A stretch of DNA of 15,850 nt from positions 1 through 15,850 of the forward strand of contig JAFGKQ010000105.1 of NCBI GenBank assembly GCA_016928495.1. Direction: 5' to 3'. Positions 1-15,850 of this stretch are shown here, in pieces. Numbering within the stretch: the first letter of the stretch is position 1; each line of letters starts with the position of its first letter. Below the pieces are notes generated by a model. The model made no database searches. It was not told where the DNA came from and worked only from the letters and a program-made list of their open reading frames with translations. This DNA comes from Candidatus Fermentibacterales bacterium (GTDB lineage: Bacteria; Fermentibacterota; Fermentibacteria; Fermentibacterales; JAFGKQ01). Made by a program: the position numbers and the translations under genes.

Positions 1-106
1 GTCTCAGAATGCTGTCGTGCAGCTCCAGCGCCGCCCGCATCTCGTGGGGATGATCCTGCCAGCGTCTCGTGGAGCCCTCGATGTCCGTGAAGAGGAACAG
101 GGGCAT
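1..106 (-). CDS. Class III adenylate/guanylate cyclase, N-terminal fragment (gene leaves the window)
   Basis: Reading leftward from the ATG at 106-104 gives 35 open codons up to the window edge. They begin MPLFLFTDIEGSTRRWQDHP. The segment LFTDIEGST is the classic first strand of class III nucleotide cyclase domains, and its Asp (residue 8) is the first metal-binding residue. Cyclases of this kind make cAMP or cGMP. When the cyclase domain sits at the extreme N-terminus, as here, it is very often followed by an AAA/NB-ARC ATPase and TPR repeats, but none of that is visible. An AGGAGG lies 12 nt upstream of the ATG, slightly far but convincing. The gene diverges from the TIR gene at 406. Family recognition rests on a short stretch, but that stretch is highly characteristic. 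Confidence 0.8.
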   Translation of the reverse strand, partial: MPLFLFTDIEGSTRRWQDHPHEMRAALELHDSILR

Positions 107-118
107 GACCTGCAGCAA

Positions 119-124
119 CCTCCT
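119..124 (-). promoter_or_regulatory. Ribosome binding site of the minus-strand cyclase
   Basis: On the minus strand this reads AGGAGG, a full anti-16S match, 12 nt before the ATG at 106. It supports that start although the fragment is only 35 codons long. An in-frame TTG immediately after the AGGAGG has no room for ribosome binding. Confidence 0.6.
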
Positions 125-318
125 GTGCGGGCGTAGGTGCACGGACCGGAGCAGGTAATCTAGGCAGAACCGGGCAGCATGATAAGGCCACGCTTGCGGT
201 CGTGCCCCAGGCTGTCCCCGATCCGGGAGGGCGTCACGGTCAGCCCCCGGCAGGAAGAAAATGGTGCGTGTCCCCATTTGGCGCTTGCCTGAGGGGGCCG
301 GGCCCGGGTAGTTTCCAC

Positions 319-344
319 GGGTCAGCGGGTGTTCCCGCTGATCC
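319..344. repeat. Inverted repeat upstream of the TIR gene
   Basis: TCAGCGGG (322-329) and CCCGCTGA (334-341) are perfect complements separated by TGTT. The stem extends outward through one G-T pair to two more G-C pairs, giving 11 pairs around a four-base loop. It lies 62 nt before the ATG at 406. No T-tract follows on either strand, so an intrinsic terminator is unlikely. It could be an operator for a dimeric regulator, or a hairpin in the 5' leader of the TIR mRNA. The structure is seen directly; the role is inferred. Confidence 0.55.
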
Positions 345-405
345 ACGATCAGGAATCTCGGACATATCCCCGCGACGGGGCTTCCGGGCAGGGAACGGGG
401 CGGAG

Positions 406-3400
406 ATGAGCAGGGCCGTCTTCATCAGCCATTCGAGTCGGGACAGGGAAGCCGCGGGGCTGATCTGCGAGTACCTGGAGTCCAGAGGACAGGCCTGCTG
501 GATTGCCCCCAGAGACATACCGACGGGCTCGGACTGGGTAGAGTCGATCATAGACGGAATCGACTCCGCATCGGCAATGGTGCTCGTAGTGTCCAGCGAC
601 TCCAACCGCTCGCCACAGGTCAGGAGGGAGATCGAGCGTGCCGTCAGCCGGGGACTGGCGCTGGTTTCCGTGGTCATAGAGCGCGTCGACTTCTCCAAAT
701 GGATGCAGTACTACATCTCGACCAGGCAGTGGTACGACGCCACCAGGGGAGATCTCGAGAGGCACCTGCCCGCGATACTCGAGGCGCTCGGGCCCGGCGA
801 AGAAGAGGTCAAGGCCGGGATGTCGAATCTGGCCACCCTGCTCGAGAGCGATATCTCCAGGCTCGCTTCCGAGATCGAGTACGAGGAAGGGGCCAGCACC
901 GCGAGGCTCGAGGAGGGCGAGCGGAGGAAGGCCGCGGTGCTCTCGATAGAGGTGAGAAGACCCGCCGGGGCACACATGTCGAGGCGTGCCCTGTCGAGGA
1001 TAGCGGAGACCATCTCGGGCATGGTAGGCAAGGTCGTTCAGGCCTACGGCGGCTTCCTCGAGCGGGACGAAGCCTTCTCCTTCAGGTGCGTCTTCGGCGT
1101 CGAGCGTGCGCTCGAGGACGACAGCCAGAGAGCCGTCAGCAGCGCCATCAGGGTGTTCAACGGCCTCGGGCAGATCAACGGCGTTCTCAGGGCGCAGGAC
1201 ATCGTGCTCGACTTCATGATGGGCGCGTCCGCAGGGGTCCTGGAAGTGTCCAGGGACGTCATCGGCGGGCAGAAGGTATCCGGTAGCGCGCTCGACGAGG
1301 CCGACTCTCTGGCGGAGAGGGAGCCCCGCAACGTTCTCCTGGTCACCAAGGACGTCTTCAGGGACTGCAGGGGCAGGTATCCGTTCGAGCCCTGCGGTGA
1401 GCTCTACGGACAGCCGACCTACGAGCTCACGGAGTACACGATGCAGCCTCCCGCGGACGAGCCCTCCCAGCAGGAGATGACCCCCTTCGTCGGAAGGAAG
1501 CGTGAGCTCGACGAGCTGCGCAGCCTTGCCGCCAGGCAGGTCGGCGGGACCGAGCCGAACAGGCGCGGGGGCTGCAAACACCTGGTGATCGGCATCAGGG
1601 GAGAGGCCGGGGCCGGCAAGACCAGGCTGGTCAGGGAGCTTCGCAGGGAGCTCGAGGCGGATCACCGCGATCCGCCACTGATCCTGTGCTCGAGGACCAT
1701 GGCCTACGCGCAACCTCCCTACTGGCTCTGGACGTCGATGCTCAGACAGCTCCTCGGCCTGGGTCACGACGAACGCCCCGGGTACGGGGAGTTCAGGGCG
1801 AGGCTCTCCGGCCTGTCGGGGGACGAGGCTCTGACGGATTCGGCGCCCTTCCTGGCCGAGCTCCTCTCGATAGACCCGGGAGACTCGGGCTCCTCGTCCA
1901 TGGACGAAGCGGCCAGGTCCCTCGAGATCAGGGCTGCTCTCAGGAACGTCTTCAGAGCCGTGGCGGCCACTCGCAGGCTCGTCCTGGTCCTGGACGACCT
2001 GCACAGGACAGGCAGCACCTGCAGGAGCGCCCTCGAGTTCATCATCGCCGAGTGTGACTCGAAGAGGCCCATCCTCATGATCATGCTCTACAGGTCCGAG
2101 CGAGAGGACGGCTCGGCGGTCGAGTTCGCCATCCTCCCGGGGTATGCCGAGGCATCGGAGCTGTGCCTGGAACCTCTGTCCACCCGTGAATCAGAGGAGC
2201 TGATGCAGGAGGTGCTGACATCCATGGGCGGGTCGGGGGAGGCCTCCGACAGACTGAGGACCCTTCTGCTCGGATGCTCCAGAGGCAATCCCTTCTTCAT
2301 GGAGGAGATGATCAGAGAGCTCGTCGAGTCGGGCACTGCCACCGAGACCGGGCAGGGATGGGATCTTCCGGATCGCCCGGGCGACTCGCTGGTTCCGTCG
2401 ACTCTCTCGGGACTGCTCCAGTCCCGCCTGGATCGGCTCCCGGGAGACCAGAAGGCCGTTCTCCAGGGTTCCTCGGTCCTGGGAATGGAGTTCCTGATGG
2501 GCCTGTTCAGATCCCTTGCAGCCAGGGTCTACGGCAGCGAGGACGAAGCCAGGTTGCTGGACGACCTGGAGCGGAGGCAGTTCCTGAGCTGCGAGAGGAG
2601 CGCCTTCGAGCGGAGGTACGCCTTCCCCAGCAAGCTGATACACGATGTTGCCTATGACAGCATGCTCGAGAGCAACAGACGGCTCCTGCACAGGGCTGCA
2701 GCCGAGTCCATCGAGGAGTTCTTCCCTGAGGACCAGGATGGCGTTGCCTCCGCTCTGGCCTACCACTGGGACAGGGCGGGGGATCCCCGCAGAGCGGTAC
2801 GTTGGGGGTTGAGGGCCCTCGTCGGGGCAGCCGCCAGCTACCAGAACGAAGACGCGCTCATGCTCGCCGAGAGGCTGATCGAGCTCCTGGACAGCCTGCC
2901 GCCGGGGGACGAGGCCGACGGCTGGATGCTCGACGTCCTGCTCCAGAAGGCCAGGGTCGAGGGAGTGCTCGGGCTGAAGGAGCAGGAGCTGGCGACCATC
3001 CGTCGCTCCATGGAGATGACCGCGGACGGCCGCTACCCCCGGAGGGAATGCGAGATAGCCATCGAGATGGCCCACTACCTGGAGATGGACGGCAAGCCAG
3101 GGGAGTCGAGGAGCCTGTACGAGAAGGCACTGGCTATCGCCAGGGAGATAGGCGATACCGGACTGCAGTCGATAGCTCTGATGAACCTGGCAGGGGCTGA
3201 GCACAGGGCGGCCAGACCCGATGAGGCCATGTCCCTCTACGAGCAGGCGAGGAAGCTCGCCGTGGAAGGGGGAACCCTGCTCATGGAGGCGCAGGTGGTG
3301 CTCAACATCGGCGTGCTCCACCACAGGCTGGGCAGGATGGACCAGGCGATGGAGAGCTACGACGAGACGATCGGCCTGCTCGAGCGAATCGGAGACAGGA

Positions 3401-4143
3401 AGGCCCTCGCCACAGTCCTCGTGAACCAGGGCATACTCCACAGCAACCAGGACAGGACCGAGAAAGCCCTGGAGCACTACGGAAGGGCGATGAGACTCTT
3501 CAGGGAGATCGGATTCAGGCGGGGAGAGGCCGCTACCGGGATCAACATGGGGATAGTCTACCGGGAGCTTGGCAACTACCCGGAGGCTCGCGAGCTCTTC
3601 AGCCAGGCCATCCAGCTCAACGACGAGATAGGCGACAGGCAGGCCTCGGTGGTCGCCATGCTGAACCTCGGAGCCCTCCACCAGGACCAGGGCGAGCTGG
3701 ACGAGGCCGAGGAGTGCTTTCGAAAGAGCCTCGAGACCGGGCTGGAATCGGACAGCATAAGGCTCGAGGGTCACGCCAGGTTCGGCCTCGGGTCGGTTCA
3801 CAGGCTGAAAGGCCGATTGCATCAGGCGAGGGAGGAGCTCGAGACCGCGCTGGGGATCCTGCGAGAGATCGGCGAGAGGAAGTCCGAGAGCGCTGCTCTC
3901 AGCACTCTTGGCCTTCTCTGCTGCGACGAGGGACAGCCTGAGGAGGGCCTCGCCCGCTATTCCGAAGCGCTGGAGATCCTCGAGGACCTCGAGCTTGGAG
4001 TTCTCGACTCGGAGGATTTCACGGGACTGCGTGACAGGTTGATGGAGATGGGCTGCGAGAGCGACAGAGTACCTCTTCCCTCGCAGTGGGAGTCGGCCTC
4101 CTCACCCGCCGGTGGGGCTGCACCGGGCGACACCTCCGGATAG
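406..4143 (+). CDS. TIR / degenerate nucleotide cyclase / AAA ATPase / TPR sensor protein
   Basis: This is a 1245-residue, four-module, presumably cytoplasmic protein. Residues 1-130 are a TIR_2 domain (VFISHSSRD near the start, CWIAPRDI at 31-38). E75 in VRREIERA matches the position of the catalytic Glu in NAD-cleaving TIR domains. Residues 172-345 follow the class III cyclase fold pattern (GERRKAAVLS, then VVQAYGGFLERDEAF, then SRDVIGGQKV). The first metal Asp is replaced by E182 and the catalytic Asn/Arg pair is absent, so this domain is probably inactive. Residues 359 to about 760 are an AAA_16-type ATPase, opening FVGRKRELDEL, with Walker A GEAGAGKT (399-406) and Walker B LVLVLDDLH (D530-D531). 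Residues from about 880 to 1195 are TPRs in an exact 40-residue register. I chose the ATG at 406 because the TIR fold starts there and AGGGAA lies 10 nt upstream. The gene is followed after 96 nt by the GGDEF gene. An NADase or cyclic-ADP-ribose output is inferred from the family; the ligand is unknown. Confidence 0.9.
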   Translation: MSRAVFISHSSRDREAAGLICEYLESRGQACWIAPRDIPTGSDWVESIIDGIDSASAMVLVVSSDSNRSPQVRREIERAVSRGLALVSVVIERVDFSKWMQYYISTRQWYDATRGDLERHLPAILEALGPGEEEVKAGMSNLATLLESDISRLASEIEYEEGASTARLEEGERRKAAVLSIEVRRPAGAHMSRRALSRIAETISGMVGKVVQAYGGFLERDEAFSFRCVFGVERALEDDSQRAVSSAIRVFNGLGQINGVLRAQDIVLDFMMGASAGVLEVSRDVIGGQKVSGSALDEADSLAEREPRNVLLVTKDVFRDCRGRYPFEPCGELYGQPTYELTEYTMQPPADEPSQQEMTPFVGRKRELDELRSLAARQVGGTEPNRRGGCKHLVIGIRGEAGAGKTRLVRELRRELEADHRDPPLILCSRTMAYAQPPYWLWTSMLRQLLGLGHDERPGYGEFRARLSGLSGDEALTDSAPFLAELLSIDPGDSGSSSMDEAARSLEIRAALRNVFRAVAATRRLVLVLDDLHRTGSTCRSALEFIIAECDSKRPILMIMLYRSEREDGSAVEFAILPGYAEASELCLEPLSTRESEELMQEVLTSMGGSGEASDRLRTLLLGCSRGNPFFMEEMIRELVESGTATETGQGWDLPDRPGDSLVPSTLSGLLQSRLDRLPGDQKAVLQGSSVLGMEFLMGLFRSLAARVYGSEDEARLLDDLERRQFLSCERSAFERRYAFPSKLIHDVAYDSMLESNRRLLHRAAAESIEEFFPEDQDGVASALAYHWDRAGDPRRAVRWGLRALVGAAASYQNEDALMLAERLIELLDSLPPGDEADGWMLDVLLQKARVEGVLGLKEQELATIRRSMEMTADGRYPRRECEIAIEMAHYLEMDGKPGESRSLYEKALAIAREIGDTGLQSIALMNLAGAEHRAARPDEAMSLYEQARKLAVEGGTLLMEAQVVLNIGVLHHRLGRMDQAMESYDETIGLLERIGDRKALATVLVNQGILHSNQDRTEKALEHYGRAMRLFREIGFRRGEAATGINMGIVYRELGNYPEARELFSQAIQLNDEIGDRQASVVAMLNLGALHQDQGELDEAEECFRKSLETGLESDSIRLEGHARFGLGSVHRLKGRLHQAREELETALGILREIGERKSESAALSTLGLLCCDEGQPEEGLARYSEALEILEDLELGVLDSEDFTGLRDRLMEMGCESDRVPLPSQWESASSPAGGAAPGDTSG

Positions 4144-4239
4144 AGCGCGTGGCGTCACGGCCTGCCCGCGCCCCCGGAAAAGACTTGTACGAAGCCGCCG
4201 GGGACACGATAGTAAGCCATACCGGCTTGTCACCATGAG

Positions 4240-7200
4240 ATGCTGTGCCAACATCGAGGGACGGAGCGCAGGGTGCAGGAAGACACTCCGCGGGACGAGC
4301 TGACTGGACTACCGGGCAGAGAGGCGCTGGAGTCTCTCGGCGGGGACTTCCTTGCGAGAGACCAGGGCACCAGATGGTCCGTGATGGTGGTCGACATAGA
4401 CCACTTCAAGCTGATAAACGACGTCTACGGTCACCTCTGCGGAGACGACGTGCTGAAGCAGATCGGGGCCGTGATCCAGCGAAACGCCCGTCGCGGTGAC
4501 ACGGCGATCAGGTTCGGCGACGACGAGTTCATCGTTGTCATGCCGGGAACAGACCACCTTCAGGCAGCGAACGCCGCGCAGAGAGTCCTGGAAGAGCTGC
4601 GGGAGGAGTCCTTCCCCAACAACCTCGAGGTGAGCCTCTCGCTCGGCGTCGCCGACAGCAGCGATTCCGATCAGGCTCTCTCGAGCGTGGTCGAGAGGGC
4701 GGACAGGGCTCTCTACCAGGCCAAGGAGGGCGGCAGGGGGAGAGTCTCCTTCTACTCGGAGTCCCCGGGCGAGTCCCAGGGCTTTCCTGCCGGCATCTCC
4801 TTCGATCACTTCGTGGACAGGCAGAGGGAGCTCAAGGTCCTCAGAACAGCCCTGGACGAGACCATCCTCCATGGAGGAAGGACCGTCGTGATCTCCGGGT
4901 CGCCGGGCACCGGGAAGACCAGGCTGGGGCACGAGCTGATGCACTACTGCCGCTTCAAGGGCTGCTACTTCCTGGAGGCCCGCTGTGAGGAGCTGGGCTC
5001 CAGGAAGCCCTATACGCTTCTCACTCGTCCCATAGCGCATCGCCTGTCCGAGTTCGAGGACAGGCTGCTCGACAGGCTGAGGGAGGAAATCGGGGAGGTC
5101 GATGCCCGTACCTCGAGCCTCTTCCCCGCCCTGGGCCTGACCGGCTCCATCGTTCAGGCGGACGATCCGGAGTCAACCAGGTTCAGGGTCATGTCGGAGA
5201 TCGCCCGGGTCCTCGGGGCTATGACCTCCATAAGCCCGACCGTTCTCATGGTCGACGACATCCAGTGGATGTCCAGGGCCGATCTCGAGCTGTTCTGTCA
5301 GCTCGCCCGGTCTCTGAGAGAGTCCCCTGTGCTGCTGCTCGCGACCCTCCGCTCTCCTACCCGTGACTACCCGCTCGTGGAGAGCCAGCTTCACTCGCTC
5401 TCCAGGTTCGCGAGGATCAGCGAGCTGGAGCTGAGAGACCTGGAGGCGGAGTATGCCGGGCACATGGTGATGTTCGCTCTCAGGGACCCGCAGGTACCGA
5501 GACAGGTCCTCTCGGTGCTGATCCGGCAGAGCGGCGGCAATCCTCTCTATCTCAGGGAGATCCTGAGATCGCTCCATGAGAGCGGGGCAATCTGCAGGGG
5601 AGAGGACGGATCCTGGCGCTACAGGCTGGAAGAGGGGCCGGCAGTTCCCGACTCCTTGTCCGGGGTGATCGAGGGCAGGCTGGACAAGCTGGAGGGGGAT
5701 GGCAGAGAGGTCGTGCGCGCAGCGGCCCACGCGGTCGGATGCTTCACCCTCGAGCTCATTGCAGCGGTGACCGACAGGCTGGAGCCGGACATCGAACGCT
5801 CGTTCGAGAAGCCTCTGCAGATGGATCTGCTGCGCGAGGAGCCAGGTCCGGGAGAATCGTCCTCCTACTGCTTCCATCACGATACCCTGAGGGAGTTCCT
5901 GCTCCGGGAGACGACCCCGGAGGACCATGTGAGCATCAACGGCAGGATCGCCCGTTTCTACGAGGCACGTCTCGATGACGAAGGCGATTCCGAGCTGCTG
6001 CACAGGATAGCGTTCCACTACGGCGAGAGCGGTGACGAACCCAGGCTCAGCCGGTTCGCCCTTCTCACGGCGCGCGCCTGTCTCGACGACCAGGCCAGGC
6101 TCGAGGCGCTCCCCTGGCTGGAGCGATTCCTCGAGACAGCCGACCGCACGAAGACGGACAGGTCCGACCTGTTCTTCGCCGCGCTCGAGCTCGGTCGTCT
6201 CTATACCCTCACCGGAAGGGACTCCGAAGGTCAGGTTCTCGTGAAGGAGCTCATGCGAGTTGCCGCGGACGAGGAGGAAGTAGGCAGGGTCCACCTGCTC
6301 TCAGGTCAGCTCCTCTTCAACCAGGGGGATATGAAGCTGGCCATGGGCCAACTGAACAACGCTCTCGACAGACTGATCGACCTGTCCGAGAGGGCGGCGG
6401 CAGTCCGCCTCCTGGCGATGGTCCTCTTCAGCATGGGACGCGGAGATCAGGGCATAGAGCTGCTGAGCAGATGCATAAGGGAAGTGGAGAACTCGGACGT
6501 GGGCGGCCGGAGCCACATTCTCGCTCACCTTCACAACGCGCTCGGGGGCATACTCGCGAGCGTGGGCCACTCTCCCGCTGGAGCGGAGCACTGCCTCGAG
6601 GCCGTCTCGCTCTTCTCCGAGGCCGGAGACAGAGCCGGCGAGGCTGCCGCCAGCATGAGCGCCGCCTCGGCGCTGGACTACGAGCTGGACTGGGAGAAGC
6701 GCCTGTCGCTCATGAAGTCGGCGGTCGGCACCTTCAGGGAGATGGGGCTCGTCGATTCCCTGATGCCGGCATACGTCAGCATGGCAAGGCTTTACAACCT
6801 GATCGGGCAGTACGATCTCACGGAGGAGTATGCCTCGCTGGCGAGGTCGCTGGCAGAGGATACCGGAGCCAGGGACGACCTGATGTGGGCCGAGGCCTAC
6901 CTCGGTTTCGCGGCTTCCGGCAAGGGCGACCCGGGCAGTGCCGAGAGCCATTTCGGTACCGCCATAAGGCTGGCGGTGGAGTGTGGCTCACCCTCGCTCG
7001 CTTCCAGATTCAGGCTCGATCTGGCCGAGTTCTACATCGACCGCAACCAGCTGGACCGCGCTGAGGAGCTCGTGGCCGAGGTCGAGAAGACCAAAGGTCT
7101 CGATCAGATGGGCGATAAGCTCGCCAACTCCCTCTCCTGGGCAAGGGGCAGGCTCTTCCTGGCTGGAGCCATGGGGGACAGGGACAAGCTCGGCAAGGCG

Positions 7201-7470
7201 GAGGAGCTGCTCAGGGCGAGAAGGGACTCACACCAGATGTTCGGCTTCGTCGAGGACATGGAGACAGCCTACGTTCTGGCGAGATGCCTGCTCCAGAAGG
7301 GAAAGATCTCCGAGGCCGCCGAACTGGTGAGAGAGGCCTTCGCGAAGCTCCAGGAGTGCCTGGAGAACTTCCGCAGCAGCACGCTCAGGAACAGCTTCTC
7401 GAGAACGGAGCTCGCCTCCGGTCTCACAAGGCTTCACGACAGCCTTCTCGGCAGGAGCACCTCGGACTGA
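4240..7470 (+). CDS. GGDEF (variant GDDEF) / AAA ATPase / TPR sensor protein
   Basis: This is a 1076-residue protein. Residues 18-175 are a GGDEF domain: DELTGLPGREAL, then VVDIDHFKLINDVYGH, then an RxxD inhibitory-site motif (R84-D87), then the signature. The signature reads GDDEF (93-97) instead of GGDEF, so diguanylate cyclase activity is doubtful. A conserved linker (FDHFVDRQREL) leads into a P-loop ATPase with Walker A GSPGTGKT (220-227) and Walker B TVLMVDD (D339-D340). A winged-helix-like segment follows, with the typical RQSGGNPLYLREIL. Residues from about 600 to 1050 are degenerate TPR-like helices. The ATG at 4240 has only a weak ribosome site. A GTG at 4273 has GGAG 6 nt upstream and would give an N-terminus the same length as in the paralogue at 13483, so it is a serious alternative start. 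The downstream lipoprotein gene overlaps this stop codon. Confidence 0.9.
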   Translation: MLCQHRGTERRVQEDTPRDELTGLPGREALESLGGDFLARDQGTRWSVMVVDIDHFKLINDVYGHLCGDDVLKQIGAVIQRNARRGDTAIRFGDDEFIVVMPGTDHLQAANAAQRVLEELREESFPNNLEVSLSLGVADSSDSDQALSSVVERADRALYQAKEGGRGRVSFYSESPGESQGFPAGISFDHFVDRQRELKVLRTALDETILHGGRTVVISGSPGTGKTRLGHELMHYCRFKGCYFLEARCEELGSRKPYTLLTRPIAHRLSEFEDRLLDRLREEIGEVDARTSSLFPALGLTGSIVQADDPESTRFRVMSEIARVLGAMTSISPTVLMVDDIQWMSRADLELFCQLARSLRESPVLLLATLRSPTRDYPLVESQLHSLSRFARISELELRDLEAEYAGHMVMFALRDPQVPRQVLSVLIRQSGGNPLYLREILRSLHESGAICRGEDGSWRYRLEEGPAVPDSLSGVIEGRLDKLEGDGREVVRAAAHAVGCFTLELIAAVTDRLEPDIERSFEKPLQMDLLREEPGPGESSSYCFHHDTLREFLLRETTPEDHVSINGRIARFYEARLDDEGDSELLHRIAFHYGESGDEPRLSRFALLTARACLDDQARLEALPWLERFLETADRTKTDRSDLFFAALELGRLYTLTGRDSEGQVLVKELMRVAADEEEVGRVHLLSGQLLFNQGDMKLAMGQLNNALDRLIDLSERAAAVRLLAMVLFSMGRGDQGIELLSRCIREVENSDVGGRSHILAHLHNALGGILASVGHSPAGAEHCLEAVSLFSEAGDRAGEAAASMSAASALDYELDWEKRLSLMKSAVGTFREMGLVDSLMPAYVSMARLYNLIGQYDLTEEYASLARSLAEDTGARDDLMWAEAYLGFAASGKGDPGSAESHFGTAIRLAVECGSPSLASRFRLDLAEFYIDRNQLDRAEELVAEVEKTKGLDQMGDKLANSLSWARGRLFLAGAMGDRDKLGKAEELLRARRDSHQMFGFVEDMETAYVLARCLLQKGKISEAAELVREAFAKLQECLENFRSSTLRNSFSRTELASGLTRLHDSLLGRSTSD
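7453..7457 (+). promoter_or_regulatory. Ribosome binding site that points to a CTG start
   Basis: AGGAG lies inside the last codons of the GGDEF gene and ends 9 nt before the CTG at 7467. That CTG is the first codon of a textbook lipoprotein signal peptide. No ATG, GTG or TTG in that frame lies at a usable distance. This site is the main reason for choosing the unusual start. Confidence 0.55.
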
Positions 7471-8576
7471 AGCGGTACCGCCTGCTACTGCCTCTCCTCC
7501 TCGCCTGCGGCTCTGAGGCCGGAGCAGGGCTCGAGCCTCTTCTGGACGACGTCCGCTACTTCTCCCCGATGCCGGGCGGCATGGTTCTGTGCGAGCTCGG
7601 CCCGGACTCAGTGGCAGTTCTCGACCCCTCGACCCTCGAGCTGACCGCGTGGAGGCCGGACTGGACCCCGGAGGCCGATGGATGGTCGACCGGGGGCCTC
7701 TGGGCCCTGGACGTCAGCTCCGACGGCGAGTGGGTGCTGCTCGCCCCGACGATCTGGGTAAGCGAGGAGTTCGAGCATGGATGGTCGGGCAGCGATGCCA
7801 TCGCCCTGGTGCTGTGCCGATCCGACGGATCGGAGGCAAGAGGGCTTCTGATCTGCCCCCACCCCATGGGCGGAGAGCAGCCCGTCTTCGGCCTCGTCCC
7901 GGGAGAAACGCTCATCTACGGCAACTGCATTGCCTGCCGCTACATGCCTGCCGACGAGTACGCGGGCCACATCAGGCGAACCAGGGGGCTGCTGCCCCTG
8001 GAGCCTGACGGGGGCTGGTTCGACTTCGAGGAGATGGCCTTCCCGGAGACAGGATGCGGTGGTGACGGCATCGTCTGGTTCGGGCAGCTTCTGGAGTCGC
8101 CTTCGGGGGCTCTCCTAGCCTGCGCCGACGACGCGGGAGAAGGTGCCTTCGGAGGGCTGACGGTCTTCGACCAGCATACACTCGAGCCCGTCCTGGACTT
8201 CATGCTCGCCGAGGAGGACCAGGGCTACCTGCGGTCGTGGGTGGACGAGGAGCACCTGCTGGTCAGCATCAACGGCAGGTCCGGCCTGCTGAGCGTTCCG
8301 AACGGGGTGCTCACCGAGATTCCGGAGGGCCAGGACTGGAAGGTCTACTGCTCTCTCCCCAGCGAAGGGATGCTCCTCACCAGGGATGGTGGCTCCACCG
8401 CCGAGCTGGTGCGGTCCATGGACTGGGAGGCGCTCCGACCCACGGATGCCGAGACCCTTCACCTGGACCCCGCTGAGCTCTCGGAGCTGATCCTCCCGCT
8501 CGAGCGGGGGACGGCCCTCATCGGACCTTCCTGGGGAAGGGGCGGCCTCCGGCTGCTGGATCTTCGCGGACCCTGA
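7467..8576 (+). CDS. Predicted lipoprotein, possibly beta-propeller-like, unknown function
   Basis: Read from the CTG at 7467, the protein has 369 residues and begins with a compact lipoprotein signal: KRYR, then a leucine-rich core, then LLAC with the modified Cys at residue 14. The next residue is Gly, which gives no inner-membrane retention signal. The CTG shares bases with the TGA of the GGDEF gene (CTGA), so translational coupling is likely. The frame is open back to an ATG at 7284, but that start would bury the signal peptide about 60 residues in. The mature protein has recurring short beta-strand-like units ending in D-x-x-T/S-L-E-L and SSDGEWVLL-like turns, reminiscent of WD40 or propeller repeats. 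It contains nine or so cysteines, including a CIAC pair, but no CxxCH heme motif. I do not recognise the family. It probably sits on the periplasmic side of a membrane and shares a transcript with its neighbours. Confidence 0.75.
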   Translation: MKRYRLLLPLLLACGSEAGAGLEPLLDDVRYFSPMPGGMVLCELGPDSVAVLDPSTLELTAWRPDWTPEADGWSTGGLWALDVSSDGEWVLLAPTIWVSEEFEHGWSGSDAIALVLCRSDGSEARGLLICPHPMGGEQPVFGLVPGETLIYGNCIACRYMPADEYAGHIRRTRGLLPLEPDGGWFDFEEMAFPETGCGGDGIVWFGQLLESPSGALLACADDAGEGAFGGLTVFDQHTLEPVLDFMLAEEDQGYLRSWVDEEHLLVSINGRSGLLSVPNGVLTEIPEGQDWKVYCSLPSEGMLLTRDGGSTAELVRSMDWEALRPTDAETLHLDPAELSELILPLERGTALIGPSWGRGGLRLLDLRGP

Positions 8577-8578
8577 CC

Positions 8579-11149
8579 ATGGCCGGTCTGCCACGGCAGG
8601 GCGGTCACCATTGCCTCATGGGCCTCGAGGAGCTTGCGGACATGCTGCAGGTTCCGGCCTGCTTCGGCGGCAAGGCCGCTGGGCTGGCCCGCCTGATCGG
8701 TGCAGGAGCCAGAGTCCCCGCGGGCTTTGCGGTATGCGCCTGCGCCGGCAGGCCCTCCTCATGGGACGACTCTCTGATGCTCGAGTTCCGGAGGGAAGCG
8801 GCCGCTGTTCTGGATTCCGGTCCCGTGATAGCCAGATCATCGGCTATCGGAGAGGACTCCCGCGACAGGTCCTTTGCCGGCCTGTTCCGCTCGGTCCCCG
8901 ACCTGCCGGACATCGAGTCGGCAATGGCCGCGGCCGTAACCTGCATGGACCCGGCAGCATGCGTCCGGGTCCCGGGCTACGCGCCCGGAGGCGTGGATGA
9001 CGTCCGGATCGGGCTGGTCGTGCAGCGCATGATCAGCACGCCCCCGCTCTCCGGAGTCTGCTTCGCCGAGGGTCCGCCCGGCATGGACGTGGTCACCGTG
9101 GAAATGGTCCGGGGATGCGGTGCCTCGGTCGTGGGCGGGGAGGTCGTCCCGGAACGATGGGTGGTCAGGACGGGAGACGGGGCGGACACCGATGGGCAGG
9201 CCGCGCCGGGAGTGGCTCGCCTGGCTGCCGAGCTGCGAGTCTCGATGGGCGATGCGCGGCCCCAGGACTTCGAGTGGGCGATCGACCGGGAAGGGCTGCT
9301 CTGGTGGCTGCAGGCCAGGCCCGTTACCATGCCTGCCCGGCCTGTGGTCGAATGGGTCGTCCAGCGCGCCTTCGCGGGAGCAAGGGACCATCCGGTCCCG
9401 GTCTGGTCCAACTGGAACATCTCCGAGACCCTGCCCGATCCACTGACTCCCCTTGCCTGGTCACTCTGGCGGGACGAGATCCTGCCCCCGGTGACGAGGC
9501 GGCTGTTCGGCATCCCGGAAGGCTCGCCCCTGGAGGCTCACATGAGGCCCATCGATCTCGTCAACGGACGCGCCTACTTCAACCTCAACTGCATGCTCTC
9601 ACTTCCCGGCGTTGGCCGCCTGGTGCCTTCCATGGTCGCGCTAATGGACAGGAGAGCGGCGGACTCCATAGGCAGGGCCATCGAGGAAGGCCTGGTGCAG
9701 CCCAGGCAGCTCCCCGGCAACCGCCTCGTCAGGTCCGCCCGAATGATCGCCGCCGGGGCGAGGTCGCTCTCGAGGCTCTCGAGGGGAGTTCTGCCTGCGA
9801 GGGCCATGATGACGCTCGAGCGCGGCTCGAAGAGGGTCAGGTCGAGGCCTCCGGTTGCGACGCTCAGCGACGGGGAGTTGCTGAAGGAGCTGGAGCTCCT
9901 GGGAGCCGACGAGACAAGGGATCTCAGGGATGGGCTACAGATGGAGATAGTGGCGATACTGGTCTACCGGATCGCGCTGAGGTTGTACGCGAGGACGCCC
10001 TGGGCGGCGGAGCTCCTTGCGGCAGGCATTCCGGGCAATCCGACGACGGAGATATCGCTCTCGCTCGAGGACCTGACGCAGAAGGCGAAGGGACTCGGGC
10101 AGCTTCTGGAGGCCGATGGTGCAGGCCTGGCCGGGTTCCGCGACAGGCTTGGCTCCACGAGCCACGGTAGGGAGTGGCTGGCGGAGCTGGACGGGTTCCT
10201 GGACGCGTTCGGGCACAGAGGGCCGGGTGAGTTCGACCCCGGTGTCCCAAGATGGGAGGACGAGCCGGAACGCATCGTCGAGCTGGTCGTTGCGGGGCTG
10301 CGGTCACCCCTCGCGGGCGGAGCGCTCCGGACGAGGATGGAGCGGCTCTACGCAGACAGGAGGTCGACCCTGGAGAGGGCGGTGCGGGAGCGCTGCTGGC
10401 TGGTCCGCCCGCTGCTGAGAGCCGCCGCCAGGATGGTGGAGCGCTATATGCCGCTGCGAGAGGCCCCGAAGCACCACGCTCTGAGGGTGTTCCAGCGGAT
10501 AAGAAAGGCCGCGCTCGAGCTGGGCGGGAGGCTCGAGGACAGGAGCCTGCTAGGGCGAGCGGACGATATCTTCTACCTGGAGAAGCCAGAGATCGCTGAG
10601 GTGATCAGGACCGGAAGCCTCCCCGGGGGGCTGGGGCACGAGATCGCGGTCCGAAGGCTGAGGCACGAGTACTTCGCAAGGAACGGGGCCCCACCGCTGG
10701 TGCGCGGTTCTGGCAGCCCGATGGAAGGCTGCACGCCAGGCACGGCGGTTAGCGCCCGGGAGCCTGAGGAGCCGCGACCGCACGCTCTCCCGGCAGGCGT
10801 GGAGCTGAAGGGGACCCCCGTCTCGGGAGGATGCGTCCAGGGCCGTGTCTGCATCATGTCAGAGCCCGACGCCGGCAGGCTGCAGGTCGGCGGGATTCTC
10901 GTGGCCGTCTACGCGGATCCGGGCTGGACCCCTCTCTTCCCCAGGGCAGCGGCTGTGGTCATGGAGGGCGGCGGCATGCTGTGCCACGCAGCCGTCGTGG
11001 CAAGGGAGATGGGCGTTCCCGCTGTCTTCGGGCTGAAGGACGCCACTTCGCTGTTGCACGACGGTGCCCTGGTCAGGGTCGATGGCTCGGCCGGGACCGT
11101 AACGCTTCTTACTCCGGGAGACCGGGCACCTTCCGGACCTAGAAGCTGA
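8579..11149 (+). CDS. Rifampin-phosphotransferase-like PEP-synthase-family dikinase
   Basis: The 856-residue protein has the order ATP-binding domain, helical middle domain, C-terminal swivelling His domain. That order is typical of rifampin phosphotransferases (about 865 residues), not of PEP synthase or PPDK, which end in a PEP-binding barrel that is absent here. ATP-site residues are visible: GGKAAGL (K32), IARSSAIGEDS (R86), FEWAIDREG (E232) and LQARPVT (Q245, R247). The phosphate-carrying His is H803 in MLCHAAVVAREMGVPAVFG. The stretch between K32 and R86 looks shorter than usual. Such enzymes split ATP into AMP and phosphate and move the beta-phosphate to an acceptor; the acceptor here cannot be predicted from the sequence. 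The ATG at 8579 follows the previous stop by 2 nt but has no clear ribosome site. ATG 8618 is an alternative that fits the usual N-terminus. The 3' end overlaps the convergent lipoprotein gene by 11 bp. Confidence 0.85.
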   Translation: MAGLPRQGGHHCLMGLEELADMLQVPACFGGKAAGLARLIGAGARVPAGFAVCACAGRPSSWDDSLMLEFRREAAAVLDSGPVIARSSAIGEDSRDRSFAGLFRSVPDLPDIESAMAAAVTCMDPAACVRVPGYAPGGVDDVRIGLVVQRMISTPPLSGVCFAEGPPGMDVVTVEMVRGCGASVVGGEVVPERWVVRTGDGADTDGQAAPGVARLAAELRVSMGDARPQDFEWAIDREGLLWWLQARPVTMPARPVVEWVVQRAFAGARDHPVPVWSNWNISETLPDPLTPLAWSLWRDEILPPVTRRLFGIPEGSPLEAHMRPIDLVNGRAYFNLNCMLSLPGVGRLVPSMVALMDRRAADSIGRAIEEGLVQPRQLPGNRLVRSARMIAAGARSLSRLSRGVLPARAMMTLERGSKRVRSRPPVATLSDGELLKELELLGADETRDLRDGLQMEIVAILVYRIALRLYARTPWAAELLAAGIPGNPTTEISLSLEDLTQKAKGLGQLLEADGAGLAGFRDRLGSTSHGREWLAELDGFLDAFGHRGPGEFDPGVPRWEDEPERIVELVVAGLRSPLAGGALRTRMERLYADRRSTLERAVRERCWLVRPLLRAAARMVERYMPLREAPKHHALRVFQRIRKAALELGGRLEDRSLLGRADDIFYLEKPEIAEVIRTGSLPGGLGHEIAVRRLRHEYFARNGAPPLVRGSGSPMEGCTPGTAVSAREPEEPRPHALPAGVELKGTPVSGGCVQGRVCIMSEPDAGRLQVGGILVAVYADPGWTPLFPRAAAVVMEGGGMLCHAAVVAREMGVPAVFGLKDATSLLHDGALVRVDGSAGTVTLLTPGDRAPSGPRS

Positions 11150-11645
11150 ACCCGAACTCCCCATCGATCTTCCAGGATCCACCCTCGAGTACCAGAGGAA
11201 CCTCCTGGACGCTTTCGTCCCCTCCGAACCGCACGGTGACATCCACCGTGGCCTGGTCTCCGTCGACCAGCGCCTCGCCGATCGTCACCTCCGCGGCGGA
11301 CATCACACCCGCCACGGCGTCGGACGACATGATGCGTGCCGCGAACTCCCCGGGCGAAATCGTGGCAAGCTCGTTGTCCTCTATCTCGATGCCGTAGGAG
11401 CGCAGCTGAGCAGCCATGGCGGGATTGGCTCTCAGCTCGTCGAGACCCTCGGCTATCTCCTCTATCACGTTCTGGGACAGGTAGGACACCGCCCTCTGCC
11501 CGTCACCGTTGCAGAAGGCCTCGAACAGCCCGGAGACTGCGTCCTCCGGCCTGCCAGGCTGCGAGCCGCCCCCACAGCCTGCACTCATCACGAGCACGGC
11601 GAGGAGCAATGATGCTACTCCCCTGACGTCGACAGAATCCTTCAT
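11139..11645 (-). CDS. Small lipoprotein with a DUF4878/NTF2-like domain
   Basis: From the ATG at 11645 this is a 168-residue protein. It starts MKDSVDVRG, followed by a hydrophobic stretch and the lipobox SAGC (Cys24), then a Gly-rich tether GGGSQPGRPEDAV. The rest resembles DUF4878/SnoaL-type small cone folds: an N-terminal helix (AVSGLFEAFCNGDGQRAVSY) and paired strands ending VPLVLEGGSWKIDGEFGF, the usual closing motif of that group. Function is unknown; such domains bind small ligands or other proteins in the envelope. The start is supported by AAAGGGG 7 nt upstream. The frame stays open for 70 more codons upstream without signal-peptide features, so I rejected that extension. The gene lies 82 nt downstream of the glycosyltransferase on the same strand, probably one transcript. 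Confidence 0.85.
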   Translation of the reverse strand: MKDSVDVRGVASLLLAVLVMSAGCGGGSQPGRPEDAVSGLFEAFCNGDGQRAVSYLSQNVIEEIAEGLDELRANPAMAAQLRSYGIEIEDNELATISPGEFAARIMSSDAVAGVMSAAEVTIGEALVDGDQATVDVTVRFGGDESVQEVPLVLEGGSWKIDGEFGFSF

Positions 11646-11652
11646 AGCTTTA

Positions 11653-11659
11653 CCCCTTT
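11653..11659 (-). promoter_or_regulatory. Ribosome binding site of the small lipoprotein
   Basis: AAAGGGG on the minus strand, 7 nt before the ATG at 11645. It settles the start in favour of the lipoprotein signal peptide over the 70-codon longer open frame. Confidence 0.6.
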
Positions 11660-11727
11660 CGAGCTTGCTGCAGCACACGGGCATCGAATCCAGGAATGGC
11701 CATCGTGAGCGTACCGCCGGACGGATG

Positions 11728-13338
11728 TCAGCGCGACTCCTGTCTCCCGTAGACGTAGAAGGTCCGGATGCCCTCGGAGCAGTAGCCCCGGGTCGTGGGA
11801 GAGAGCGTGAATCTGGTGGTCTGCGAACCGACTGTGTCGGATTCCTCGAACACAAGGTCCCAGCCGCCGAACGCTTCTATCATTTCCCGCTTCTCGAGGT
11901 AGTAGTCCAGATTCGCGATATGGGTAACGCCCGCCGAGTCCAGGTAGTGGCCCAGACCAGAGGTCCGGATGGCATCCAGATAATCATAGCTGTTCACCAG
12001 ACCGTCCAGGTTGACCACGGGATGTCTGCAGAAGTAACCCAGGAAACCGGCATCCCAGCTCGCTATCAGGCTCCCGTCCGGCAGGGCGTCGAGGAACCGG
12101 ATACCGGCCGTCTCGGGCCTACTGTCCATCGGGATCCGGAAGGCATAGCTCCCCAGGAGGTCCGCCCCGTAGATCAGGTCGAAGCCGAGCGTGAGGGCGA
12201 GCATCAGCACCAGCACGACCCTGGCCGCCCACGCGCCTCCCGCGGTCCAGAAGAGCGCCGGAAGCAGCAGGATCCAGCCCAGGATCACCGGGAACCAGTA
12301 ATAGGTGTAGGTGTCGAGGAGGGAGCCGTAGGCCAGGGAGTAGAACACCAGCAGGCCGATCGAGTAGGCAAGGTGCGAGAGGGTAAGAACGCGCAGCGCC
12401 CTCCCGGATCTCCGCAGGCCCAGGACCGCGAGGGCACCCAGAATCAGGACCCCGCAGAGCAGGATGATCGGACTGAGTCGTCCGCCGAGGGTCAGGAACT
12501 CCAGGGCATTGGTCACCCCGTGCCCGATCAGGGCCATGTTCCCCGTGCCGAACAGGCGCCTGAGCATCATCCTTCCCGGCTCGGACTTCACGAAGGCCGA
12601 GACGGGCGCGAGACGGCCCGTCGTCAGCAGGTTGACCGAAGCGTAGAGGACAGTGAAGAGGCCAGCGGGGGCGACGAGCAGAACGGAGTCCCGCAACCTC
12701 CGGGTAAAGATCAGGATAGCCAGCCCGACCAGCAGAACCAGCAGGATCGTGTCGAGCCTGCTCGCAACCAGCAGGGCCAGCAACAGCGAGGCCCTGACCG
12801 GACTCCTGCCCCGCGACAGGTACTCCACCAGAGACAGCAGGCTCATCCCGTGCAGCAGAACGGCCAGTCCGGTCTCCATGCAGGACATGCCGCCCTTGGT
12901 GAGTAGCCAGAGGTTGGCGAGCCAGAGGGCCGAGACGGCGGGAGCGGCCCACCGGACCGGAGGGTCCAGCCTTCCGGCCGTGGCGAAGAGAGCAAGGCCG
13001 CCGGCCGCGAACAGCACGAGCTGGACCAGAGAAGCCAGCCAGAGCGCGGGCACCCCTCCTCCGGAGACCGCCATCACGGGAACCAGCAGGAGCTGCCACA
13101 GAGGATGGAACCCGTTGGTAGGGTTGATCCCGTCGAAGGAAAAGCCCCTGCCCTCAGCGAGATTGGAGGCGATCCCGAGGTAGTAGTATCCGTCATCCAC
13201 AGGGATGGGGCCGAACAGGGCCAGGACCAGAACGCCCACCGCCAGACTCAGAAGACACAGACCCGCCGCGAAGAACCGCCCACGGTCGAGCGGTCCCTTC
13301 GGGACAGCTGTTCCGATGCGTGAATCGTCAGGCTTCAT
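11728..13338 (-). CDS. GT-C family membrane glycosyltransferase
   Basis: The 536-residue integral membrane protein has about ten or eleven hydrophobic segments, the first near residues 22-44. The first periplasmic loop carries the acidic pair of GT-C enzymes (D48-D49 in PVDDGYYYLGIASNLAEG), followed by GINPTNGFHPLW (70-81). This signature recurs in ArnT/PMT-related proteins annotated as glycosyltransferase family 39 or GT-C. The C-terminal 125 or so residues look soluble and periplasmic (SWDAGFLGYF, then NLDGLVNS), as in relatives. Such enzymes transfer a sugar from a polyprenyl-phosphate donor to an envelope glycan or protein; donor and acceptor cannot be told. A strong ribosome site (GGAGGA) precedes the ATG by 8 nt. 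It diverges from the second GGDEF gene and is followed by the small lipoprotein. It has no obvious link to the sensor genes. Confidence 0.85.
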   Translation of the reverse strand: MKPDDSRIGTAVPKGPLDRGRFFAAGLCLLSLAVGVLVLALFGPIPVDDGYYYLGIASNLAEGRGFSFDGINPTNGFHPLWQLLLVPVMAVSGGGVPALWLASLVQLVLFAAGGLALFATAGRLDPPVRWAAPAVSALWLANLWLLTKGGMSCMETGLAVLLHGMSLLSLVEYLSRGRSPVRASLLLALLVASRLDTILLVLLVGLAILIFTRRLRDSVLLVAPAGLFTVLYASVNLLTTGRLAPVSAFVKSEPGRMMLRRLFGTGNMALIGHGVTNALEFLTLGGRLSPIILLCGVLILGALAVLGLRRSGRALRVLTLSHLAYSIGLLVFYSLAYGSLLDTYTYYWFPVILGWILLLPALFWTAGGAWAARVVLVLMLALTLGFDLIYGADLLGSYAFRIPMDSRPETAGIRFLDALPDGSLIASWDAGFLGYFCRHPVVNLDGLVNSYDYLDAIRTSGLGHYLDSAGVTHIANLDYYLEKREMIEAFGGWDLVFEESDTVGSQTTRFTLSPTTRGYCSEGIRTFYVYGRQESR

Positions 13339-13482
13339 GCAGGATATCCTCCGACATTACTGACGCGGCATCAAGTCCCGACACGGGCAACAGGCCGACT
13401 TCCCCGCGCAGACGGCTCTGCTTAGGTTCACTCTGGAGCAGAGGAGCCGGCATCCACGGCACAGGCAGTGGGCGGAAGGGGA
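13339..13482. other. Divergent intergenic region between the glycosyltransferase and the second GGDEF gene
   Basis: These 144 bases must carry both promoters if the two genes are independently transcribed. I find no convincing -35/-10 pair. GCAGA (13408) can pair with TCTGC (13417-13421), and TCTGCT (13417-13422) can instead pair with AGCAGA (13437-13442). The two hairpins are short and mutually exclusive, which is at most a hint of leader control. On the plus strand GGCGGAAGGGGA leads directly to the ATG at 13483. Confidence 0.5.
13347..13352 (-). promoter_or_regulatory. Ribosome binding site of the glycosyltransferase
   Basis: GGAGGA on the minus strand, 8 nt before the ATG at 13338, an ideal spacing. 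It is the best ribosome site seen in the window. Confidence 0.7.
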
Positions 13483-15850
13483 ATGACCCAGTCTGGCGAG
13501 CACCGCGACGGCCTTACCGGCCTGCCCGGAAGGGAAGCCCTGGAGAGCCTGGATCACGGGTTCTCGTCCAGGCCCGAGGGCGAGACCTGGTCAGTCATGG
13601 TGGCCGATGTGGACCACTTCAAGCTCATCAACGACGTCTACGGCCACCTCAAGGGGGACAGGGTCCTGCGGCAGGTTGCCGATGTCCTGGCGAGGAACGT
13701 CCGGCGGACCGATCATGTCCTGCGCTACGGGGGTGACGAGTTCGTCGTGGTGATGCCCGCCACCAGCCACCTGCAGGCCGCGAACCAGGCACAGAGGATC
13801 CTCGAGGATCTCGAGACCGAGATCTTCCCGGAGAACGTCAGGGTGAGTCTGTCCCTGGGAGTAGCAGACAGCGCGGCGGACGACAGCAAGCTCTCCGAGG
13901 TCATGGAGAAGGCTGACAAAGCGCTCTACCAGGCCAAGGACGGCGGCAGGGGAAGGGTCTCCTTCTACCGGGATCCGGGGGCAGGGCCCCCGCAGGCAGC
14001 GATGAGTTTCGACCACTTCGTGGACAGGCACAGGGAACTCAGGTCCCTTCGGGCCACCCTCGACGAGGTCGTCGAGCAGGGCAGCAGGTTCGCGCTGGTC
14101 AGCGGCGAGCCGGGAGTCGGGAAGAGCAGGCTTGTGGCGGAGCTGAGACACTACTGCAGCTTCAGGGGGTGTCTCTTCCTCGAGACGAAATGCGACGAGC
14201 TCGGATCCTCGGCCCCCTACGTGCAGCTCACCGGCCCGATCAGGGACCACCTGCTCGAGTCTCCACCGGCCCCCTTGCGCGAGATGCTCTTGGAGGTGGG
14301 TCCGCTCCACCCTCAGACCGCAGAACTGCTCAGGGGGGTGGATGTGGCCGAGGACGACTCGCAGGAAGCCGTCTCGGGCTCGGAGGGAGCCGTCAGGCAC
14401 AGGGTCTTCTGCGATGCGTCATCCCTGCTGAGGCAGATCGCCAGGAGGCGACCGGTCGTCTTCCTGATAGACGATCTCCAGTGGATCTCGGGGCACGACC
14501 TCGAGATGCTCTGCTATCTCGTTCGCACCTCCGCCTCGGCGAGGATCTTTTTCGTCGCAACCATGCGCAGCCCCGTCGACGGCTACCCGGAGGTTCACCG
14601 GCAGGTGATAGTGCTGTCGAAGCTAGTACCGTTCCTCACTGTCGAGCTCAGCGAGCTTCCGGAGGAGTACGCGGGCCACCTCGTGATGTTCGCGCTCCGT
14701 GACCCGCACGTGCCAAGACCGGTCCTGCAGCGGCTGGTGCGTCAGAGCGGCGGCAACCCCTTCTACCTCAGGGAGCTCCTGAAGTCCCTCACGGAGAAGG
14801 GGTCGATATCTCCCGGGGCGGCTGGAAGCTGGGACTACGAGGTCGCTGACGATCTGGAGCTTCCGGAGAGCATCTCTCAGGTCATATCCGAGCGATTGGA
14901 GGGTCTCGACGACTTCACCAGAGAGCTGCTGAGGACCGCCTCGGCGGTCGTTGGCGGCTTCACCATCGAGCTTCTCGCTTTCGTGCTGGACGAGCCTGGC
15001 ATCAGGATCGCAAGGTCTCTGCAGAAGCCCCTGGAAATGGAGTTGATGGTCGAAGATGCTGGCCTCGTCGGATCTCCCGAGTATCGCTTCACCCACGATA
15101 CCGTGCGCAGCTACCTCCACTCGCAGCTGACACTCGGCCTGAGGAAGGCGGTAAACTCCAGACTGGGGCTCTTCTTCGAGCAACGGCTGGATCGAGGGCC
15201 GGACGAGCTTCTGGCGACGGTCGCTCACTACTACTGCGACAGCCTCGACGAAGAGCGGGCAAGGAAATACAGCCTGATGGCCGCAAGGCAGGCCATGGGC
15301 CGGCAGGCAACCCGCGAGGCGATACGATGGCTCGAGTGCTACAGAGGAGTCAGCTTCGCCGGTTCCGCAGAGCACGAGGAGGATGAGTTCTTCGCCGAAT
15401 CGACGCTGGGCGACCTCTACACTCTCGTTGCCGACCACGACAGAGCCGAAGAGTGCTTCCGGAGGGCGCTGGCCATGGCCCGATCGCCCGGGGAGAGGGG
15501 CCTGGTGTTGGCGGGACTGGGGCAGATGCTCTACAACAGGGGCGACTACGACCAGGCGAGGATGGAGTTAGAGGCCTCCCTCGAGCTTCTTCCCGTGTGC
15601 GAGACCTACCTGAGAGCGGGAATGAGACTTGCCTTCATGTGGCACCTCCGCGGCGACAGCGAGCAGGCGACAAGGAGCTTCCTGGCCATGCGCGAGACGT
15701 TTCCCCAGATCGAAGATGCGACCATCAGGAAGCGTCTGGAGGCAACGTACTGCAGCGGAGCCGGCTTCGTCATGGCCCACTCCGTGTCCCCGCGAGAGGG
15801 CCTGGAACTCTGCAGGAAGGCAGTGGACCTCTACCGCGAGCTGGCTGACA
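13483..15850 (+). CDS. GGDEF / AAA ATPase / TPR sensor protein, second copy, 3' end outside the window
   Basis: The frame is open from the ATG at 13483 to the window edge, giving 789 visible residues. The protein is co-linear with the one encoded at 4240-7470. A GGDEF domain (residues 10-163) has VADVDHFKLINDVYGH, an RxxD inhibitory site (R74-D77) and an intact GGDEF signature (83-87), so diguanylate cyclase activity is plausible. The shared linker FDHFVDRHREL follows. The P-loop ATPase has Walker A GEPGVGKS (208-215) and Walker B VVFLIDD (D330-D331), and then RQSGGNPFYLREL. TPR-like helices begin near residue 600 (TLGDLYTLVADHDRAEECF) and continue to the edge. By family this would make c-di-GMP in response to ATPase/TPR-sensed input; the ligand is unknown. 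The ATG is preceded by GGCGGAAGGGG. The gene diverges from the glycosyltransferase. Confidence 0.9.
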   Translation, partial: MTQSGEHRDGLTGLPGREALESLDHGFSSRPEGETWSVMVADVDHFKLINDVYGHLKGDRVLRQVADVLARNVRRTDHVLRYGGDEFVVVMPATSHLQAANQAQRILEDLETEIFPENVRVSLSLGVADSAADDSKLSEVMEKADKALYQAKDGGRGRVSFYRDPGAGPPQAAMSFDHFVDRHRELRSLRATLDEVVEQGSRFALVSGEPGVGKSRLVAELRHYCSFRGCLFLETKCDELGSSAPYVQLTGPIRDHLLESPPAPLREMLLEVGPLHPQTAELLRGVDVAEDDSQEAVSGSEGAVRHRVFCDASSLLRQIARRRPVVFLIDDLQWISGHDLEMLCYLVRTSASARIFFVATMRSPVDGYPEVHRQVIVLSKLVPFLTVELSELPEEYAGHLVMFALRDPHVPRPVLQRLVRQSGGNPFYLRELLKSLTEKGSISPGAAGSWDYEVADDLELPESISQVISERLEGLDDFTRELLRTASAVVGGFTIELLAFVLDEPGIRIARSLQKPLEMELMVEDAGLVGSPEYRFTHDTVRSYLHSQLTLGLRKAVNSRLGLFFEQRLDRGPDELLATVAHYYCDSLDEERARKYSLMAARQAMGRQATREAIRWLECYRGVSFAGSAEHEEDEFFAESTLGDLYTLVADHDRAEECFRRALAMARSPGERGLVLAGLGQMLYNRGDYDQARMELEASLELLPVCETYLRAGMRLAFMWHLRGDSEQATRSFLAMRETFPQIEDATIRKRLEATYCSGAGFVMAHSVSPREGLELCRKAVDLYRELAD

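Follow-up and report, generated by a model that had tools for sequence, protein, structure and literature searches.

The window analysed here, the whole stretch of 15,850 bp, comprises the entire contig C194 of a fragmented 2.3 Mb genome, which shares its order with the 41 compared genomes and sits in a separate family. Three of the encoded proteins, P0001, P0002 and P0003, follow a single plan, consisting of an N-terminal head, an AAA_16/STAND-like ATPase and a TPR solenoid. This plan, proposed in a first-pass annotation, was confirmed by the open reading frames and domains, while domain matches and cyclase homology confirmed the heads it had named, a TIR with a degenerate cyclase domain in the first protein and GGDEF domains in the other two. 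The features are as follows:

2..106, minus strand: first 35 aa of a class III cyclase, MPLFLFTDIEGST, with the FTDIEGST motif; divergently transcribed, with the remainder past the contig end
406..4143, plus strand: P0001, TIR - pseudo-cyclase - STAND NTPase - TPR protein of 1245 aa (ORF and domain checks)
418..750, plus strand: P0001 TIR_2 domain, aa 5-115 (E 1.4e-21), with the catalytic-position Glu conserved in SPQVRREIERA
916..1419, plus strand: P0001 degenerate class III cyclase, about aa 171-338, with both metal-binding Asp positions altered
1483..2082, plus strand: P0001 AAA_16 / STAND NBD, aa 360-559 (E 1.5e-13), with P-loop GEAGAGKT and Walker B DD
2971..3993, plus strand: P0001 TPR solenoid, about aa 856-1196 (TPR_12, E 1.9e-44)
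4240..7470, plus strand: P0002, GGDEF - STAND NTPase - TPR protein of 1076 aa (ORF and domain checks)
4291..4740, plus strand: P0002 GGDEF domain, aa 18-167 (E 1.9e-37), with an I-site-like RRGD upstream of the signature
4516-4530, plus strand: P0002 GGDEF-domain signature, which reads GDDEF in the sequence
4810..5337, plus strand: P0002 AAA_16 / STAND NBD, aa 191-366 (AAA_16, E 2.8e-22), with TPR further on
13483..15850, plus strand: P0003, GGDEF - STAND NTPase - TPR protein of at least 789 aa, the gene being cut by the contig end
13501..13953, plus strand: P0003 GGDEF domain, aa 7-157 (E 2.8e-38), with an intact GGDEF signature and an RRTD I-site
14017..14556, plus strand: P0003 AAA_16 / STAND NBD, aa 179-358 (AAA_16, E 5.3e-26), with P-loop GEPGVGKS and a TPR match also

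The 35 residues at the left edge are best matched by a cyclase-NB-ARC protein of the relative G005 (contig C5; 53% over 34 aa, E 2e-8). The cyclase head noted for this gene at first pass thus stands, but its body is predicted to be of the AfsR/NB-ARC type, related to, yet different from, the chassis of the three window proteins. The other window genes include one coding for a protein without a family match and one for a small protein that matches DUF4878 at a borderline level. A PEP-synthase-like protein with PPDK_N and PEP-utilizers domains is encoded at 8579-11149 on the plus strand; its layout recalls rifampicin phosphotransferase and prodigiosin ligase, although it falls under every curated NCBIfam cut-off. 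The 536 aa protein encoded at 11728-13338 on the minus strand has no Pfam or NCBIfam match. Domain searches of the window proteins revealed no defence genes among these neighbours.

BLAST shows the bodies of the three window proteins to be homologous, with the lowest E value, 1e-20, for the TIR protein against the 4240 GGDEF protein. The alternative of unrelated bodies, which would have undone the first-pass scheme, can be set aside, as the bodies align at 24-46%, have the STAND motifs in common and, on the tree described below, place the TIR heads within the cyclase clade. All-against-all BLAST extends the homology of the ATPase-TPR bodies across heads, with E values between 1e-15 and 1e-26 for most pairs of complete bodies that differ in head. 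The sequence hallmarks of STAND NTPases are present, with the P-loop, the acidic Walker B (Asp), the sensor Arg and a GxP-like motif (GNP) forming invariant columns across the bodies (alignment A1). In an AF2 model of the 4240-7470 protein (pLDDT 77.5, pTM 0.60), built from an input alignment of 6 sequences only and with low confidence in the inter-domain arrangement, a GGDEF fold (VIA Z 24.9 against the GGDEF structure 3ign) is followed by a STAND core and a TPR arm, with a winged-helix domain and a helical-repeat sensor behind the NBD. The top Foldseek match of the model is PH0952 (6mfv), a STAND protein with a TPR sensor (E 1.5e-14); the VIA Z against this structure is 24.4 over model residues 187-970, but with a large rmsd (13). 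Together with MalT (8bob; Z 24.1, 366 residues, rmsd 4.8) and Apaf-1 (3sfz; Z 22.0), it heads the non-GGDEF matches for the STAND/TPR part. One headless chassis member (L139; G016, contig C41, 1831-5271, plus strand) has a C-terminal BTAD domain instead, which suggests an output domain at the opposite end of the chassis.

The sample from the order comprised 129 chassis genes, bearing cyclase, double-cyclase, TIR-cyclase and GGDEF heads, with three headless; heads were called with HMMs built in this analysis, on loci fetched from sampled, partly fragmented genomes. GGDEF-chassis genes are found in 37/42 genomes of the order (combined counts) and in about 10/343 genomes outside it, where the two best candidates per genome were scored, while TIR-cyclase genes are patchy (8/42 genomes of the order). 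Among the matches listed in a contig scan, mostly ordinary GGDEF proteins, GGDEF-AAA proteins occur in records titled Aegiribacteria, Stahlbacteria, WOR-3 and Deltaproteobacteria. The GGDEF-AAA-TPR protein of G016 (L137) shares 77% identity over 1066 aa with a protein in a record titled Candidatus Aegiribacteria, a taxon of the FCB group according to the NCBI taxonomy; the window comes from a relative of this taxon, in the phylum Fermentibacterota. The GGDEF signature is canonical in 44 of the 46 family heads in which it is readable. It is retained by the 13483 protein, which should, going by its sequence, be a regulator with c-di-GMP synthase activity. The 4240 protein, with a clear GGDEF fold in the model, has GDDEF, one residue off, and is a paralogue of uncertain activity owing to this substitution, with a head that may be inactive.

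On a tree of 125 bodies, 47 GGDEF bodies fall in a single block of 48 and two more stand apart as a pair, giving the GGDEF heads two origins, and the TIR bodies are nested inside the cyclase clade. On this tree the head labels show strong clustering (12 changes vs 64 in shuffles). Several independent gains of TIR, suggested by a quick tree, were dropped, as the TIR/cyclase clade, in a careful tree, requires 2 changes and one TIR clade is not rejected (AU p 0.19). The family proposed at first pass, in which one homologous ATPase-TPR chassis carries differing nucleotide-signalling heads, is thus upheld order-wide, but to call the heads interchangeable is too strong, because swaps are rare.

The first-pass annotation had further expected such genes to cluster beyond chance. 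In four well-assembled relatives unselected for clusters (G003, G005, G011 and G016), 3 chassis pairs occur within 12.5 kb against 2.03 expected (P 0.32), and the expectation was not borne out; G014, G006 and the source genome have more close pairs, but were picked because of these pairs and lie outside the test. Tandem GGDEF-GGDEF copies are present in G005, G014 and G037, while adjacency of a TIR and a GGDEF gene occurs, of all the TIR loci examined, in this window alone. The lack of a pair excess and the tandem copies together indicate that proximity mostly reflects local duplication or chance, and the adjacency of the three window genes is likely to be incidental, the genes being scattered paralogues of a big family. 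This concerns the grouping only and is compatible with the STAND-switch explanation given below. There are two observations to the contrary: two genomes from a single genus (G004 and G006; L095 and L096) retain a convergent cyclase-GGDEF pair, and P0002 starts only 96 bp after P0001 on the same strand, with no terminator-like site found in the gap.

The middle region of P0001 is homologous to real cyclase domains, without a Pfam cyclase match. P0001 aligns with a cyclase-AAA-TPR protein on contig C291 at 30.6% identity over 1116 aa, the alignment beginning before the cyclase, and its pseudo-cyclase matches the intact family cyclases with an HHalign probability of 99.7%. Both metal-binding Asp residues are kept in 37/39 single-cyclase heads and in 0/14 TIR-linked cyclase domains (from the 14 TIR proteins whose cyclase domain is recognisable; Fisher p 5e-11, for sequences that are related and hence not independent). 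The pseudo-cyclase nucleotide-contact motifs (G-D, VN.A.R) are eroded too. The 406 protein thus lacks the two Asp residues of an active class III cyclase, and a joint output of TIR plus cyclase does not apply to it, because this cyclase is without catalytic metal ligands. Its TIR_2 fold retains the Glu conserved in the family alignment and against Cat1. As the metal Asp residues are lost from a domain that is still recognisable, the most likely ancestor of the TIR proteins is a cyclase switch that lost its catalytic output. A TIR head common to other bodies was considered and rejected, the TIR-array proteins forming their own branch. An unusual array of this kind (L088; G017, contig C156, 2575-17332, plus strand) consists of six consecutive same-strand genes, each coding for a protein of 592-891 aa with an N-terminal TIR; four of the TIR domains are near-identical, and no Pfam domains were found past the TIR in 3/3 proteins tested.

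It is possible, though doubtful, that the TIR-pseudo-cyclase protein acts as a scaffold or nucleotide-binding regulator, with the dead cyclase binding ATP or cNMP made by its active paralogues and gating the TIR. All 14 TIR proteins in which the domain is recognisable have kept the pseudo-cyclase, which would be expected if a role persists, and the intact paralogue on C291 is encoded in the same genome, but with the nucleotide-contact motifs eroded, nucleotide binding is not evident.

Whether the family serves immunity or regulation had been left open at first pass. Upstream of the GGDEF-chassis gene, a CAP_ED (cNMP-binding) gene occurs in 10 genomes (nine at 3-90 bp on the same strand, one at 1.1 kb) and a PAS-HD-GYP gene (c-di-GMP phosphodiesterase type) at 148 bp in two genomes. 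Downstream, an RCK/Castor-Pollux-like channel gene was found at four inspected loci, and an RCK channel occupies the matching position in 9/9 genomes of genus g8 carrying that ortholog. In G011, the single RCK gene found adjoins a cyclase-chassis gene, and the same partner is thus paired with two head types, the GGDEF chassis in one genus and the cyclase chassis in G011. The RCK/Castor-Pollux-type loci are L106, L145, L038, L039 and L128. Furthermore, the source genome has PilZ, HD-GYP and 14 GGDEF matches. Given the conserved c-di-GMP, cNMP and RCK pairs, together with PilZ and HD-GYP, regulation is the favoured role of the GGDEF arm, while for the TIR arm both immunity and regulation remain open.

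TIR copies that are 80-87% identical have almost no flanking DNA in common, whereas GGDEF orthologs have kilobases in common. In G013 the slot behind the TIR gene is occupied by AbiE and in G031 by a PDC-S01-type ATPase; AbiE adjoins the TIR gene in G003 too. Defence-island enrichment at the TIR loci was considered, with AbiE near two of them and an unlocated third AbiEii match counted as well, but is not claimed because AbiE also lies next to control GGDEF loci. Comparison against PADLOC-DB 2.0 gave no full-length system match, with weak partial TIR, TPR or P-loop matches for the three window proteins. That the TIR and GGDEF STANDs are anti-phage sensors (Avs/NLR-like), whose heads would use up NAD or produce alarm nucleotides, with the window as a defence cluster, is unlikely: STAND combined with TIR is the layout seen in plant TIR-NLRs and in some defence proteins of bacteria, and the patchy occurrence, dissimilar flanks and AbiE and ATPase neighbours of the TIR genes agree with it, but the PADLOC matches, the AbiE at control loci, the non-defence neighbours in the window and the GGDEF members, which are near-universal in the order and show both kb-scale synteny and conserved regulatory operons, argue against it.

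Enzymes of the GGDEF, class III cyclase and TIR types are active only as dimers or larger assemblies, which would explain their exchange on one chassis. The window proteins and their relatives are probably ligand-triggered STAND switches whose multimerisation turns on proximity-activated enzyme heads. The core would consist of the P-loop NTPase, helical and winged-helix domains and the TPR sensor, with N-terminal heads that work only when at least two copies meet. From a closed, ADP-bound monomer at rest, reading of a ligand by the TPR arm would lead to ATP binding and multimerisation, and the heads would be brought together; we infer this ligand sensing and ATP-driven assembly, as well as the products, which would be c-di-GMP for the GGDEF heads and cAMP or cGMP for intact cyclase heads, while TIR heads would cleave NAD or a related nucleotide. 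The old cyclase of the TIR proteins, now dead, would stay as a linker or regulatory domain, making the 406 protein a TIR effector switch. STAND proteins with TPR sensors are closed ADP-bound monomers at rest and multimers when ATP-bound (PMC6468293). Double-cyclase members keep the Asp residues in the first domain and the Asn/Arg site mostly in the second; with both halves of the cyclase site on one chain, oligomerisation need not be the activating step in these proteins.

Only tentatively can it be proposed that one STAND-TPR chassis was rewired among three second-messenger chemistries within one order, with at least one replacement of the cyclase by GGDEF and more than one addition of TIR, each addition followed by cyclase death, owing to a single activation logic of induced proximity. 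The family offers a natural series of one switch with differing enzymes, so that the idea of STAND as a generic proximity switch can be tested on paralogues from one genome. It also leaves a clear trace of output change, with the TIR present and the cyclase metal ligands gone, and links NLR/STAND switches to predicted c-di-GMP production, a link found in no paper searched. STAND, cyclase-AAA-TPR (sAC-like) and TIR-STAND proteins are already known kinds. No description of a GGDEF-STAND-TPR protein (GGDEF with STAND/AAA_16/TPR) was found in the literature searched, most subscription papers lying outside it, and no paper on TIR-linked cyclase decay was found in this incomplete set.

Among known systems, TIGR03903, a family of TOMM kinase/cyclase fusions, matches the window proteins along their NTPase or cyclase-NTPase stretch, but with scores of 193, 131 and 160 bits against a curated cut-off of 706, and in the absence of a kinase head, they fall outside it. 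Human ADCY10 has cyclases, NTPase and TPR from N to C terminus, with a composite active site, as do the CYC-CYC relatives in the source genome, for which it is the best PDB match. These relatives resemble ADCY10 and the bacterial cyclase-AAA_16-TPR proteins in their complementary halves, with the metal Asp in C1 and the Asn/Arg in C2. Two complementary cyclases ahead of the NTPase-TPR part occur in the proteins on C261, C310 and C119 and in none of the window proteins, which, unlike ADCY10, have GGDEF or TIR in place of the cyclase or overlaid on it. The 406 type is like the TIR-STAND proteins (plant TNLs and bacterial TIR-STANDs) in its TIR head, STAND NTPase and repeat sensor and in the catalytic-position Glu, but differs in the dead cyclase between TIR and NTPase (14/14 clear cases) and in a body that belongs to the cyclase clade. 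With PH0952 and MalT-type proteins (6mfv, 8bob; PMC6468293) the window proteins share the NBD-HD-WHD core, the GxP-like motif, the TPR-type C-terminal arm and an effector domain at one end; the effectors of PH0952 and MalT are DNA-binding domains, whereas those of the present chassis are GGDEF, cyclase or TIR enzymes. In the vWA-MoxR/VMAP ternary systems, cNMP cyclase, GGDEF and TIR/SLOG heads are reported to interchange on a common chassis (PMC7159879), but that chassis is built from multiple vWA, MoxR and VMAP genes, while the chassis described here is a single STAND-TPR polypeptide.
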